Assembly (NCBI RefSeq): GCF_004102725.1
Contig: NZ_LHQS01000001.1
Coordinates: forward strand, 353,327-417,326
Reading direction: 5' to 3'
Source of the DNA: Methanoculleus taiwanensis
GTDB taxonomy: Archaea; Halobacteriota; Methanomicrobia; Methanomicrobiales; Methanoculleaceae
DNA length: 64,000 nucleotides
Positions 6,661 through 14,611 of this stretch are shown piece after piece. The stretch's first letter is position 1, and the number at the start of each line of letters is the position of its first letter. A model generated the notes under the pieces. The model was not told where the DNA came from. It worked only from the letters and a program-made list of their open reading frames with translations, and ran no database searches. The position numbers and the translations under genes were made by a program.

Positions 6661-7493
6661 GTCACCACTGCCTTTCGGAAGGTCTGCCAGGCGATGACGT
6701 ACATCGCCGTGGTGAAGAGTGCGAGAGCGGCGAACGAGATCAGGATATCTGCCGTCGTGTAGGAGTAGCGGGTGCCGATCGCGAAGAAGTCGCTGCCGAT
6801 GGCGAAGTAGCGGATGCCGGTGACGAGGTAGGTGAGCGGGTTCAAGACCGAGAGCGCCTGCAGAAACGGTGGGAAGGCCGATATCGGGTAGAGGGCGTTA
6901 GAGACGAAGAAGAGCGGCAGCGTCAGGAGCGTGATGACGCCTTGCAGCCCTTCGGGGCTCTCCATCCGCATGGAGATAGTGGAGGAGAGGAAGAGGAACC
7001 CGAGAGAGAAGATGCCGACGAAGAGGAGGATGCCGAGGATGGCGAAGGCGACCTGCAGCGCCGAGTAGCCTTCAAAGAAGGTGACGCCGATGAAGAGCCC
7101 GAAGACCATGATGATCGTCACCTGGATGAAGGACTTGGTCATCCCCGAGAGGCTGATCCCGACCATGATAGCCGTCCGCGGGATGGGGCTTGCCATCATC
7201 TCCCGCATAAGCCCCCAGTTTTTGTCGAAGAGGATGCTGATCCCGCCGAAGAGGCTCGTAAAGAGGGTGGTCATCGCGATCACCCCGGCCGCCATGAAGG
7301 TGAGATATTCGACCGAGAAGACCCCCTCCGGAACCGGGACGGTGCTGGTCAGCTGGTCGAAGTTGCTCGACATCGCGACGCCGAAGAAGGCCAGCCAGAG
7401 CGCCGGCTGAAGGAGCGAGGAGAAGAGGAGCGCCCGGAACCGGGTGAACCGGATCATGTCCCGCCAGTAGACGGTCAGAAACGCCATCCTCAT
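6657..7493 (-). CDS. ABC-2 type exporter permease
   Basis: A permease of 278 residues with six predicted transmembrane helices, in the ABC-2/DrrB family. The characteristic stretch LFFVSNALYPISAFPPFLQALSVLNPLTY, with its membrane re-entrant region, is present near residues 195-225. It pairs with the ATP-binding gene whose stop overlaps this start (ATGA at 7490-7493). The system exports an unknown compound; in this family drugs, lipids or glycans are exported. A downstream secreted repeat protein is translationally coupled to it. Confidence 0.9.
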   Translation of the reverse strand: MRMAFLTVYWRDMIRFTRFRALLFSSLLQPALWLAFFGVAMSSNFDQLTSTVPVPEGVFSVEYLTFMAAGVIAMTTLFTSLFGGISILFDKNWGLMREMMASPIPRTAIMVGISLSGMTKSFIQVTIIMVFGLFIGVTFFEGYSALQVAFAILGILLFVGIFSLGFLFLSSTISMRMESPEGLQGVITLLTLPLFFVSNALYPISAFPPFLQALSVLNPLTYLVTGIRYFAIGSDFFAIGTRYSYTTADILISFAALALFTTAMYVIAWQTFRKAVVT

Positions 7494-8455
7494 CCGCCGC
7501 CCCTCCCCGCTTCACCGGTATCCCGGAGCTCCCTGCCCGTATAGTGGACGAAGACGTCGTCCATGGACGGTTTTTTGAGGTTGACGCTCCGGATGGCGAT
7601 CCCCTCCCGTTGCACCCTGTCCATGACCTCCGGCAGGCAACGGCTGGCGTCCTCGGTGATGGTGACGACGAGGCCGCGGGGCGATGCCATGATATTCCGG
7701 ATGCTCGGAAGATCGCCGAGTGCCTTTTCCGCCGCCCGGTTGTCGCCCGTCTCGAGGTAGATGACGTCCTCTCCGAGGGCGTTCTTGAGGTCGTCCGGGG
7801 TGCCGGTGGTGACGATCTCCCCGTGGTCTATGATACTGATCCGGTCGGAGAGGGTGTCCGCCTCATCCATGTAGTGGGTGGTGAGAAATATCGTTGTCCC
7901 TCCTCTGTTGACCTGCTCGATGTAGTCCCACATCCGAAGGCGCGTCTGAGGGTCAAGGCCGATCGTCGGTTCGTCGAGGAAGAGCACCTCGGGCTGCGTC
8001 ATCAGGCCGCGGGCGATCTCGAGCCTCCGTTTCATGCCGCCGGAGAGGTTCTTTGTCCGCTCGTTCCTTTTTGCGGAAAGTTCCACGATCCCGAGCATCT
8101 CCTCGATCTTCGCCCGCCGCTCGTCCCGCGGGATGCCGTAGAGCCGCCCGTGGAACTCCATCGTCTCCCAGACGGTGAGATCGCGGTCGAGCACCTCGTT
8201 CTGGAAGACGACGCCGATCGATTCCCTGACTCGTGCAGGCTCCTTTGCCACGTCATGGCCGGCGATCCTGACCGTCCCGTGCTGCAGGGGGAGGAGGGTG
8301 ATCAGCACGTTGATGGTGGTGCTCTTCCCTGCACCGTTCGGGCCGAGGAACGAGAAGACCTCACCTTCCCTGACTGAGAAGCTGATCCCCTTCACCGCCC
8401 GGAAGCCGTCGAACGAGTGTTCGAGGTTCTCCACTTCGATAATGTTTCCGGCCAT
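7490..8455 (-). CDS. ABC-2 exporter ATP-binding protein (DrrA-like)
   Basis: The cytosolic ATPase of the exporter, 321 residues. Walker A GPNGAGKS is at 38-45, followed by signature LSGGMKRRLEIARGL, Walker B VLFLDEPTIGLDP and the switch histidine in TTHYMDEAD. The C-terminal section with VNLKKPSMDDVFVHYTGREL is the DUF4162-like tail of daunorubicin-resistance ATPases. The start at 8455 begins the conserved domain directly (MAGNIIEVENL). A start at 8500 would add 15 residues with no family support. The GGAGGG upstream is 14 bases away, longer than usual, so the start is not certain. Confidence 0.92.
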   Translation of the reverse strand: MAGNIIEVENLEHSFDGFRAVKGISFSVREGEVFSFLGPNGAGKSTTINVLITLLPLQHGTVRIAGHDVAKEPARVRESIGVVFQNEVLDRDLTVWETMEFHGRLYGIPRDERRAKIEEMLGIVELSAKRNERTKNLSGGMKRRLEIARGLMTQPEVLFLDEPTIGLDPQTRLRMWDYIEQVNRGGTTIFLTTHYMDEADTLSDRISIIDHGEIVTTGTPDDLKNALGEDVIYLETGDNRAAEKALGDLPSIRNIMASPRGLVVTITEDASRCLPEVMDRVQREGIAIRSVNLKKPSMDDVFVHYTGRELRDTGEAGRGGG

Positions 8456-8513
8456 GTGACCCGGATTCTCCCTCCTGTCCACTACTCTTGCTCGCGGCAT
8501 ATCTCATTTTCCG

Positions 8514-9854
8514 TCAGGTGCCCGCCGCAGTCCCCTCCTCCTGCACCCGCCGGAAGGTGAGCACCCGGAGGGCGAGGAAGAAGACGAGGTAGATGACGCC
8601 GGCGGTGATCAGGAACGCTCCGGCGCCGAACTGTTCGTAGAGGATCCCGCCGGCGATGAGCCCGACGATGCTCGCAAGGCTCCCGGCGCTCCCTGCAACC
8701 CCCTGCACCGCACCCTGGTAGCGCTTTCCGGCGAGTTTCGAAAGCGCCGAGAGGGTCGACGGCCACATCAGGCCGTTGCCGACGGCGATGAAGACGGCGG
8801 CGAGGTAGATGAGGGCGAGATTGCCTGTGGCGAGGAGGATGAAGTTCACTCCGAGGATCGCGCTCCCTGCTACGATCAGGTACCCCTCTGAGATCCGGTC
8901 GGAGAGATGCGAGAGCACCGGCCCCTGGACGAAGGCCATCATGGCGCTGACCGCCGCGAGGTAAAGCCCGAGCGTGGTGGATGTCCACGCGAGCGGGCCT
9001 GCGGCGTAGGCCGGGAAGGCGGTGTAGTAGATGTTGAACCCGAGGAAGATGAGGAAGTAGAGGAGCAGGATGTAGGGGACATGGCTGAGCCGGAAGACGC
9101 CGCGGATGGAGAGGTCGCGCTCCCCCTCCAGCCGGTAGCATTCCTTCTGCTCCTGCCCGAAGGCGGTTCTGATGGCGGTTTTCTCCGGCTTTTCGGTGAT
9201 CGGGCAGGGGCGCCGCTCCGGGAGCCAGACGATAATGATGACGACGCCGATGAGGGCGATGACGAGCGCTACAAGGACGGGCGGCACCTGGCCGTAACGG
9301 GTAGCACCGAGCAGTGCCGCGAGTGCCGGGCCGAGAATGAATCCGACGTTGGACGCGACCGACATCCGGCCGTAGTTCCGGTTCCGCTCCGCGTCAACGG
9401 TGACATCGGCGAGGTAGGCGTTCGCGACGGAGACGTTCCCGCCGGTGATCCCGTCGAGCGCCCGGGCGACGAAGAGAACGAGTAGGGGCAGCGTGAGGGT
9501 GAACGCGCCGAGGAGCCCGGAGTCGACGGCGGCGAGGGGGACGATCGGGAGGAAGAGTGCGGCGAGGAAGATGCACCACGAGGCGAGCGTCCCTGCCTGG
9601 GAGAGGAGGAGGATTTTCTTGCGGCCGTAGACGTCCGACGCCCGGCCGAGGAGCGGGGCGCCGATGAGCTGGAAGGCCGGGTAGGTCGAGCCGAGCAGGC
9701 CGTAGACGAGGGCGTTGCCGCCGAAGTCCGTGACGAGGAAGACGAGGAACGGGAGGACGATCGAAAACCCGAGGCTGCCGATGAAGCTCACCGCAAAGAG
9801 CGGGTAGAGCGTCTTTGCGGGCACGTTTCCGGGTTCGTCGGGTTGCGGTGGCAT
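8514..9854 (-). CDS. MFS transporter (TetA-like), copy 1
   Basis: A 12-helix major facilitator of 446 residues. The motif-A loop GRASDVYGRKK lies after helix 2, and a TetA/multidrug-type motif (ARALDGITGGNVSVANAYLADVT) follows in the first half. A cytoplasmic linker of about 40 residues joins the halves. The gene is a clear paralogue of the one at 13124-14527: the stretches GNALVYGLLxSTYPAFQLxGAP and GNVSVANAYLADVT are shared. The substrate is unknown. The start at 9854 aligns with the paralogue. A perfect inverted repeat lies 8-26 bases upstream of the ATG. Confidence 0.9.
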   Translation of the reverse strand: MPPQPDEPGNVPAKTLYPLFAVSFIGSLGFSIVLPFLVFLVTDFGGNALVYGLLGSTYPAFQLIGAPLLGRASDVYGRKKILLLSQAGTLASWCIFLAALFLPIVPLAAVDSGLLGAFTLTLPLLVLFVARALDGITGGNVSVANAYLADVTVDAERNRNYGRMSVASNVGFILGPALAALLGATRYGQVPPVLVALVIALIGVVIIIVWLPERRPCPITEKPEKTAIRTAFGQEQKECYRLEGERDLSIRGVFRLSHVPYILLLYFLIFLGFNIYYTAFPAYAAGPLAWTSTTLGLYLAAVSAMMAFVQGPVLSHLSDRISEGYLIVAGSAILGVNFILLATGNLALIYLAAVFIAVGNGLMWPSTLSALSKLAGKRYQGAVQGVAGSAGSLASIVGLIAGGILYEQFGAGAFLITAGVIYLVFFLALRVLTFRRVQEEGTAAGT

Positions 9855-10139: not shown

Positions 10140-12527
<2,388 letters not shown>

Positions 12528-12542
12528 AATTTCCTCAATCGT

Positions 12543-12561
12543 TTAGTTCGAATTTACCTAA
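12543..12561. promoter_or_regulatory. Candidate MarR operator upstream of lonA
   Basis: TTAGTTC-gaatt-TACCTAA is a 7-5-7 inverted repeat with five of seven positions symmetric. Its right arm and spacing are identical to the perfect repeat before marR. It lies 16-34 bases before the lonA start codon, where binding would block transcription initiation or the ribosome site. Confidence 0.55.
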
Positions 12562-12582
12562 CTTTGTGGACGGGCAAAAAAA

Positions 12583-13002
12583 TTATCCGACCTTCTTCAG
12601 AATCCCGATCAACAGTTCCGTCTCATCTTCGTCAAGTGATAAGAGCATCCTCTCGACCATCCTGTTCAGAGCGTTCTGCTCGGCCTGCGCAATCATCCGC
12701 CCCTTCTCGGTCAGGCGGATATACACGATTCTCCGGTCGGCAGGGGATTTTTCCCGGTACGCACACTCCATCCGGACGAATCGATTGATCATCTCTGTCA
12801 CGGTGGGTTTTGAATTTCTGGTAATCTCGGCAAGTCTGCTGAATGTTACATCCCCGTGCTCGTCGATGACCTTCAGATAGGCGATCTGCTTCATCGTCAG
12901 ATCAGATAATCCGCATTCGGAGAAGATCTCGCAAGAGCACTCGTTTTTGATGGTGATCAGGCGGTCAAAAACTTCGCACAGGTGCTCTTTCCTTGCCGTC
13001 AT
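12583..13002 (-). CDS. MarR family transcriptional regulator
   Basis: A winged-helix regulator of 139 residues. It has the MarR layout: an N-terminal dimer helix, a helix-turn-helix (about 55-80, FSRLAEITRNSKPTVTEMINRFV), the wing (about 82-100, REKSPADRRIVYIRLTEKGR) with the family's D-R-R motif, and a C-terminal dimerisation helix. MarR proteins bind short palindromes and release them when a ligand binds or a cysteine is oxidised. A perfect 19-bp palindrome lies 14-32 bases upstream of its own start and a near copy precedes lonA, so autoregulation plus control of lonA is likely. The ligand is unknown. Confidence 0.92.
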   Translation of the reverse strand: MTARKEHLCEVFDRLITIKNECSCEIFSECGLSDLTMKQIAYLKVIDEHGDVTFSRLAEITRNSKPTVTEMINRFVRMECAYREKSPADRRIVYIRLTEKGRMIAQAEQNALNRMVERMLLSLDEDETELLIGILKKVG

Positions 13003-13015
13003 AACCGATACTCTG

Positions 13016-13034
13016 TTAGGTAGGGTTTACCTAA
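13016..13034. promoter_or_regulatory. Candidate MarR autoregulatory operator
   Basis: Perfect inverted repeat TTAGGTA-gggtt-TACCTAA. It lies between a minus-strand TATA-like element (CTTATGAT, about 13034-13041) and the marR start codon at 13002. The same half-site TACCTAA recurs with the same 5-base spacing upstream of lonA. Confidence 0.6.
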
Positions 13035-13123
13035 TCATAAGCGTTGTGGTCAGGTGCCGGGGGCGACAAAAACCGGGAAGATCCCCTCCCTGACTGTTTT
13101 ATCCCGTTTTTCTGCCCTCCGGT

Positions 13124-14527
13124 TCACCCCGGGTACATCCCGTCCTCCGTCTCGGCGGGGCCTGACGGCATCCCGGGAGCGGTCACCTCCGGCGGCTGCC
13201 GGGGGGTGGTCGGCTGGAACCGGAGTGTCCGCAGCGCGAGGAGAAAGACTACGAGTATGATCCCGCCCGAGATGAGGAATGCCGCAGGGCCGATCGCTTC
13301 GTAGAGCACACCGCCGAGGATCAGCCCGACGATGCTCGCGAGGCTCCCGGCGCTCCCCGCGAATCCCTGCACCGAGCCCTGATAGGTCTTCCCGGCGATC
13401 TTCGAGAGGAGTGAGAGGAACGACGGCCACATGATGCCGTTCCCGGCGGCAAAGAGCACGGCACTTGCGTAGATGAACAGCATGTTTCCGGTCACGAGGA
13501 CGGTGAACCCGATGCCGAGGATGACGCTCCCGGCGATGATGAGAACGGCCTCCACGTAGTGTTTCGAGATCCGGGAGAGCACCGGCCCCTGCACCACCAC
13601 CATCATCACGCTGATGGCGGAGTAGTAGATCCCGAGCTCCGCCGCCGTCCAGGCGAGGCTGCCTGCGGCGAAGGCGGGGAATGCGGTGTAGTAGATGTTG
13701 AACCCGAGGAAGATGAGGAAGTAGAGTGCCAGGAGGAAGGGGATATGGCTGATCCGGAAAGCACCCCGGAAGGAGAGTTTCCCCTTGCCTCCGGCGAAGG
13801 AGCAGTCCCGGTGCTCCTGCCCGAAGACCTTCCGGACGCTCCCCGTATCGGGTTTCTCGGCGATAGCGCACCGGTTCGACTCCGGCAGCCAGAACGCGAT
13901 GATCAGCGTGCCGACAACTGAGATCAGGAACGCCGCGATCACCGGGAGGATCTCACCGTAGATTGTGGCACCGAGTATCCCGGCGAGCGCAGGCCCGACG
14001 ATATAGCCCATGTTGGACGCGACCGACATCCGCCCGAAGTTCTGGTTCCGCTCCGCGTCGCCGGTGACATCGGCGAGGTAGGCGTTCGCGACCGAGACGT
14101 TCCCGCCGGTGATTCCGTCGAGCGCTCTCGCGACGAAGAGGACGAGGAGCGGCAGGGTGAGGACGAAGATGCCGAGCAGAGCCGAATCTATCGTTGCAAC
14201 CGGAATGAGCGGCAGGAAGAATGCAACAAGAAAGATTCCCCAGGCGACGAGGGTGCCCACCTGGGAGAGGAAGAGGATCTTCCGCCTCCCGTACATATCC
14301 GACCATCGGCCGAGGATCGGAGCCCCCAGAAGCTGGAACGCCGGGTAAGTCGAGGCGAGCAGCCCGTAGACGAGGGCATTTCCGCCCCACTCCTCCACGA
14401 GGAAGATCAGGAACGTCAGAACGATCCCGAATCCCAGCGTCCCGATGAACGTGACGGCGTAGAGCGGGACGAGCGCCCGTCCCGTGAATGCCTCGGGCGT
14501 TCCGGGGGGCTCGGGCAGTAGCGGCAT
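13124..14527 (-). CDS. MFS transporter (TetA-like), copy 2
   Basis: A 12-helix major facilitator of 467 residues, paralogous over its whole length to the protein encoded at 8514-9854. The shared segments include GRWSDMYGRRKILFLSQ (motif A) and RALDGITGGNVSVANAYLADVT. The C-terminus carries an extra proline-rich tail (PTTPRQPPEVTAPGMPSGP). The ATG at 14527 is chosen because it aligns with the paralogue's start and a TATA-like ATATAT at 14554-14559 lies about 29 bases upstream, fitting a leaderless message; the frame extends to 14578. The substrate is unknown. With copy 1 it brackets lonA and marR. Confidence 0.88.
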   Translation of the reverse strand: MPLLPEPPGTPEAFTGRALVPLYAVTFIGTLGFGIVLTFLIFLVEEWGGNALVYGLLASTYPAFQLLGAPILGRWSDMYGRRKILFLSQVGTLVAWGIFLVAFFLPLIPVATIDSALLGIFVLTLPLLVLFVARALDGITGGNVSVANAYLADVTGDAERNQNFGRMSVASNMGYIVGPALAGILGATIYGEILPVIAAFLISVVGTLIIAFWLPESNRCAIAEKPDTGSVRKVFGQEHRDCSFAGGKGKLSFRGAFRISHIPFLLALYFLIFLGFNIYYTAFPAFAAGSLAWTAAELGIYYSAISVMMVVVQGPVLSRISKHYVEAVLIIAGSVILGIGFTVLVTGNMLFIYASAVLFAAGNGIMWPSFLSLLSKIAGKTYQGSVQGFAGSAGSLASIVGLILGGVLYEAIGPAAFLISGGIILVVFLLALRTLRFQPTTPRQPPEVTAPGMPSGPAETEDGMYPG

Positions 14528-14611
14528 CGATGGCGCTGATGCCGGGAGGAGAGATATATCTTTCCGGCAGGGGTGCACCCCCGCTACGAGGTCGCACCGG
14601 AGTATCGGCTT

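Follow-up and report, generated by a model that had tools for sequence, protein, structure and literature searches.

How is a bacterial-type Lon protease controlled in a methane-producing archaeon? The question is raised here by lonA, which follows a gene for a MarR-family regulator in the window (the whole 64-kb stretch of DNA that was analysed), and by two similar inverted repeats placed just before the two genes. From these repeats, an earlier note had proposed that one MarR protein represses both itself and lonA. Our analysis indicates that marR-lonA is very probably a conserved two-gene control module, in which MarR would repress its own gene and lonA through two operators.

marR and lonA are a conserved gene pair

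Both genes are carried by the minus strand, marR (12583..13002) coming first and lonA (10140..12527) second, with a gap of 55 bases in between. The marR product is a MarR-family winged-helix regulator of 139 aa. It matches PF01047 with 45.7 bits (cut-off 24.6), and its AlphaFold model (mean pLDDT 84.5) displays a predicted MarR fold, the best PDB matches of which are all MarR proteins (MepR, MexR, FabT and ST1710; E about 1e-8). At the sequence level, its best solved relative is FabT with a distant similarity of 49.8 bits, and its closest named relatives are found in Methanoculleus species, which assigns the window to a methanogen of this family. The protein presumably acts as a dimer on an inverted repeat. 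More specific identities were rejected for FabT (NF050133, 63.9 bits for a cut-off of 200), for a DtxR/IdeR iron repressor (PF01325, 20.8 bits, below the cut-off of 26) and for MsvR. The latter carries a V4R domain behind its DNA-binding domain, and no V4R-type Pfam match is present in this protein of only 139 aa.

The lonA product is a full-length bacterial-type Lon protease of 795 aa, with LON, AAA and Lon_C domains, a TIGR00763 match of 843.7 bits (cut-off 608) and the PKDGPSA catalytic-serine motif that defines LonA (PMC2605481). In a 2008 survey, Lon from Methanosarcina acetivorans and M. mazei clustered with a bacterial Lon and lateral transfer was suggested (PMC2605481); methanogen lonA is probably an acquired gene.

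The pair is flanked by two TetA-like MFS transporter paralogues (13124-14578 and 8514-9854, both on the minus strand), which are 64% identical. The second one has directly downstream a gene for a DrrA-type drug-resistance ABC ATPase (7490-8500, minus strand; TIGR01188, 354 bits for a cut-off of 312). No Rfam RNA element was found in 12300-13200, and a search for sigma-70 promoters, which are not expected in an archaeon, was also negative.

The association of the two genes extends far beyond the window, since lonA lies directly behind marR in about 130 methane-producing archaea. Class and phylum searches, covering Methanomicrobiales and Methanosarcinaceae, yielded 135 MarR copies, 132 of which have lonA next on the same strand with a gap of 55-239 bases as aligned, while the remaining three stand in fragmented assemblies. 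Among 232 genomes of the class, 97 contain MarR, 103 contain LonA and 95 contain both (Fisher p about 1e-52, without correction for phylogeny). The phylum sample of 393 genomes contains 72 MarR and 76 LonA proteins; there, the pair is not found outside Methanomicrobiales and one additional family, taken to be Methanosarcinaceae because the named loci belong to Methanosarcina and Methanomethylovorans. Four genomes of the phylum search have LonA only: G139 and G189 are fragments, G125 corresponds to a contig end, and only G133 is a genuine case. The rarity of lonA without its regulator suggests that unregulated Lon has a cost. In a separate case (G193:C1:2604243-2606623), marR is intact but the LonA behind it is split between two overlapping reading frames, which is possibly due to a frameshift or a sequencing error.

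Two similar putative operators, almost confined to the marR-lonA locus

The predicted marR operator (13016..13034, minus strand) reads TTAGGTAAACCCTACCTAA, or TTAGGTAGGGTTTACCTAA on the plus strand, and ends 13 bases before the marR ATG (positions -14 to -32). Its predicted counterpart at lonA (12543..12561, minus strand) reads TTAGGTAAATTCGAACTAA on the coding strand and TTAGTTCGAATTTACCTAA on the plus strand, and ends 15 bases before the lonA ATG (positions -16 to -34). Sequences, places and distances to the start codons are exactly those given by the earlier note. Pattern searches allowing two mismatches retrieved these two sites only, both in the 64-kb window (with TTAGNTMNNNNNTACCTAA) and in the whole 2.75 Mb genome (with TTAGGTANNNNNTACCTAA). 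In 100 shuffles of the window, the operator pattern was matched 0.4 times on average and twice at most; none of them reached the observed count, which places the two sites far beyond chance.

To evaluate conservation, we took from each of 110 loci 60 bases upstream of marR and the 70 bases that follow its stop codon. Allowing two mismatches, 109/110 marR upstream regions and 95/110 marR-lonA gaps contain the half-site pattern TTAGKTNNNNNNNAMCTAA, compared with about 2% for shuffles, and the operators are kept over three or more families. A lack of conservation in relatives, which would have contradicted the earlier note, was not observed. The 15 loci that lack the lonA operator count against our main explanation. 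In relatives, the consensus reads TTAGGTAAAnCCTAACTAA at marR and TTAGGTAAATnCnAACTAA at lonA, with half-sites of the type TTAGKT...AMCTAA and an information content of about 1.6-2.0 bits for positions 1-5 and 14-19 at both sites. Both repeats are present in the window as initially described; the marR repeat of the window, a perfect palindrome, is a local variant from which the consensus of the relatives differs. Besides, matrices were built from the marR sites or from the lonA sites of other families, leaving out the family of the window; with each of them, the two sites of the window rank first and second (22-37 bits versus at most 5.5 bits elsewhere in the 64 kb). The lonA-site matrix ranks the marR operator second and, reciprocally, the marR-site matrix ranks the lonA operator second.

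The co-occurrence of repeat and gene pair that the initial proposal implied is found across genomes, as the motif is specific to the marR-lonA locus and the two genes go together almost one to one. In 40 genomes of the family, the exact operator matches, among the matches listed, are all located at marR or lonA. Similarly, a 20-base version of the pattern applied to 18 genomes from 11 genera matched at the marR-lonA locus only, except for one stray site in G363. A wider regulon was sought by pattern searches in the own genome and in relatives, and no further consistent sites were found. As judged from sequence, marR-lonA looks like a two-operator regulon. Some loci display variations of this arrangement. 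In L075 and L137, the operator is doubled before marR, with an intact copy further upstream and a degraded copy beside the gene. In Methanosarcina-like loci (L135-L146), the lonA leader is long (about 75 to over 150 bases) and carries repeats that resemble GATAAT. The gap of L135 contains a further operator copy, TTAGGTTAATTAAAACTAA, located a long way downstream from the first one.

The restricted distribution of the operators bears on what MarR may control. The presence of two paralogous transporters of the drug-efflux type around marR-lonA could mean that MarR serves these MFS genes and that lonA is incidental. However, no operator precedes either MFS gene, and neither of them is found near marR-lonA in 18 relative loci, whereas lonA is next to marR in all of the 18 named loci. 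The transporters were rejected as targets, this explanation being scarcely credible. It is also highly improbable that another regulator, for instance of the DtxR type, binds both sites with MarR as a mere neighbour. DtxR-type sites look like TTAGG...CCTAA and the motif resembles such boxes, but it is almost confined to marR-lonA whereas metal regulators usually have several targets, and the operator decays where marR is missing. The latter situation is found in G133 (L132, G133:C6:188700-189760), where lonA is present with no MarR match. There, a TATA box and TCAGGCAAACACTAACTAA stand before lonA; this region is apparently the former marR promoter, now fused to lonA and with its operator in decay. 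Such decay upon marR loss fits with MarR keeping the operator conserved. In G139 (L134, G139:C1:826300-827400), marR is also missing and what looks like its former promoter is present in a more decayed form; the LonA match covers residues 8-331 only.

Operator position, T-run and mode of control

Immediately upstream of the marR operator, a TATA-like stretch (13035..13041, minus strand) reads CTTATGA in the window and TTTATAG or TATATAA in relatives, and probably functions as the TATA box of the marR promoter. The upstream consensus at marR, CACAACCTTTATAG or AAAACTATATAA, stands flush against the operator consensus. In most loci, the TATA core begins 7 bases upstream of the operator, whose own end lies 12-17 bases from the ATG in nearly all cases. 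Transcription in archaea begins some 25 bases downstream of the TATA box, and the marR operator therefore fills the space between TATA and start site, which is a position for a repressor. MarR bound just downstream of the TATA box would block TBP, TFB and RNA polymerase, because its site spans from the TATA edge to the expected start site, and marR would be self-repressed. Some MarR proteins are activators, such as the autoactivator RovA, and MarR might likewise activate lonA or both genes. However, an activator is expected to bind upstream of the TATA box, and the location of the marR operator between TATA and expected start site renders activation very unlikely and argues for repression.

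A strong or clear TATA box is not found before lonA across relatives, which counts against MarR repression of a lonA promoter. In the G+C-rich Methanoculleaceae, the block before the lonA operator is 60-100% A+T, right behind an almost pure G+C stretch. In the window, this block (CACAAAG; 12562..12568, minus strand) occupies, according to the A+T profile of the relatives, the place equivalent to that of the marR TATA box. At this location, the likeliest reading is that lonA has a promoter of its own, which would be weak and governed by an operator of the same type. MarR would also bind this related site in the marR-lonA gap, resulting in lonA repression. Conservation, locus specificity, gene linkage and operator position support the claim of the earlier note that one MarR represses both genes, and repression of its own gene and lonA is the most likely action of MarR.

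The gap contains another conserved element. A run of seven T (12576..12582, minus strand) directly follows the marR stop codon, 14 bases before the lonA operator, and is a probable terminator. Most loci have 5-8 T immediately behind marR, as in archaeal-type terminators. The T-run and the lonA operator are jointly present or jointly absent in 100/110 loci (Fisher p 6e-11), the T-run being almost always missing too where the lonA operator is. On the MarR tree, the operator trait changes about seven times with only one well-supported independent T-run/operator pair, a point against our main explanation; because of this single contrast, the association is only suggestive. The T-run possibly divides two transcription units, or a polymerase held over it by MarR could be forced to terminate.

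The second possibility amounts to an alternative mode of control, in which MarR at the lonA operator would mainly stop the marR-derived polymerase over the T-run and cause termination, rather than block a separate lonA promoter. The distance between the active site of RNA polymerase and its front edge is close to 14 bases, and the end of the T-run is exactly 14 bases away from the lonA operator in 67/86 loci, despite a mean identity of only 55-69% for the 14-base linkers and a variable run length. The joint presence or absence of T-run and operator, together with the missing strong TATA box at lonA, points in the same direction. On the other side, an A+T-rich block is present at the TATA place before lonA, nine loci have a lonA operator without a run of 5 T, and the spacing is 8-12 or 44 in some Methanosarcinaceae. 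We consider this alternative as rather unlikely; it does not exclude the main explanation, with which it can coexist.

In the main explanation, where MarR would repress both genes, a T-run terminator followed 14 bases on by an operator would allow lonA to be shut off separately from marR. MarR would block the weak promoter of lonA itself and might, in addition, halt over the T-run any polymerase that reads through. At loci devoid of T-run and second operator, transcription from the marR promoter would extend into lonA, which would remain subject to the first operator. Finally, a signal would release MarR from its operators and Lon would rise. Cys22, Cys30 and Cys80 are conserved in 106, 110 and 108 of 111 MarR proteins, respectively. 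With these three cysteines, a role in thiol or metal sensing is a reasonable guess, and thiol oxidation or metal binding at these residues may constitute the signal. In its boldest form, the model would be an archaeal regulon of exactly two operators, with a thiol-sensing MarR over Lon, a second operator 14 bases behind the T-run, where bound MarR acts as a regulated terminator, and Lon possibly degrading MarR, which would close the loop; this combination as a whole appears unlikely.

Significance and relation to known systems

Knowledge on the control of proteolysis in archaea is scarce. In the present case, a putative closed regulon consisting of one repressor, two operators and one protease can be defined from sequence alone. 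It spans two large methanogen groups, among them the genetically tractable Methanosarcina, and offers a handle on when and why methanogens turn on bacterial-type Lon. It also represents a compact natural system for the interplay between repressor and terminator in archaea. The earlier note knew of no description of MarR control of an archaeal LonA. In the same vein, we found no report of MarR control of Lon in archaea or methanogens in the literature searched, the coverage of which is partial, and dedicated MarR control of Lon appears, provisionally, undescribed so far. Provisionally new are the protease as a target, the closed regulon with two operators, its wide distribution among methanogens and the fixed spacing between T-run and operator, while the mode of action is already known as that of local MarR repressors.

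Indeed, the locus shares with the autoregulated local repressors MarR, MexR, MepR and the archaeal ST1710 a common fold, a palindrome of about 19 bases and the predicted control of both its own and the adjacent gene. It differs from them by a distant sequence similarity and by its target, an AAA+ protease instead of an efflux pump or a catabolic gene, as well as by two operators that bracket marR, the second one standing behind a T-run. FabT, a regulator of fatty-acid synthesis, is the best-scoring named MarR subfamily for this protein, but no fatty-acid genes are present at the locus. Putative cysteine-based sensing in a methanogen is reminiscent of MsvR, a redox regulator for which oxidation sensing via cysteines was proposed and 43 further candidate target genes were reported in M. 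acetivorans (PMC3960522); this large set, compared with the two sites found here, sets the systems apart by description. Finally, a MarR-type regulator and Lon also meet in one circuit in Yersinia, where Lon degrades RovA (PMC2676509). While the protease acts there on the regulator, MarR would here control the transcription of lon.
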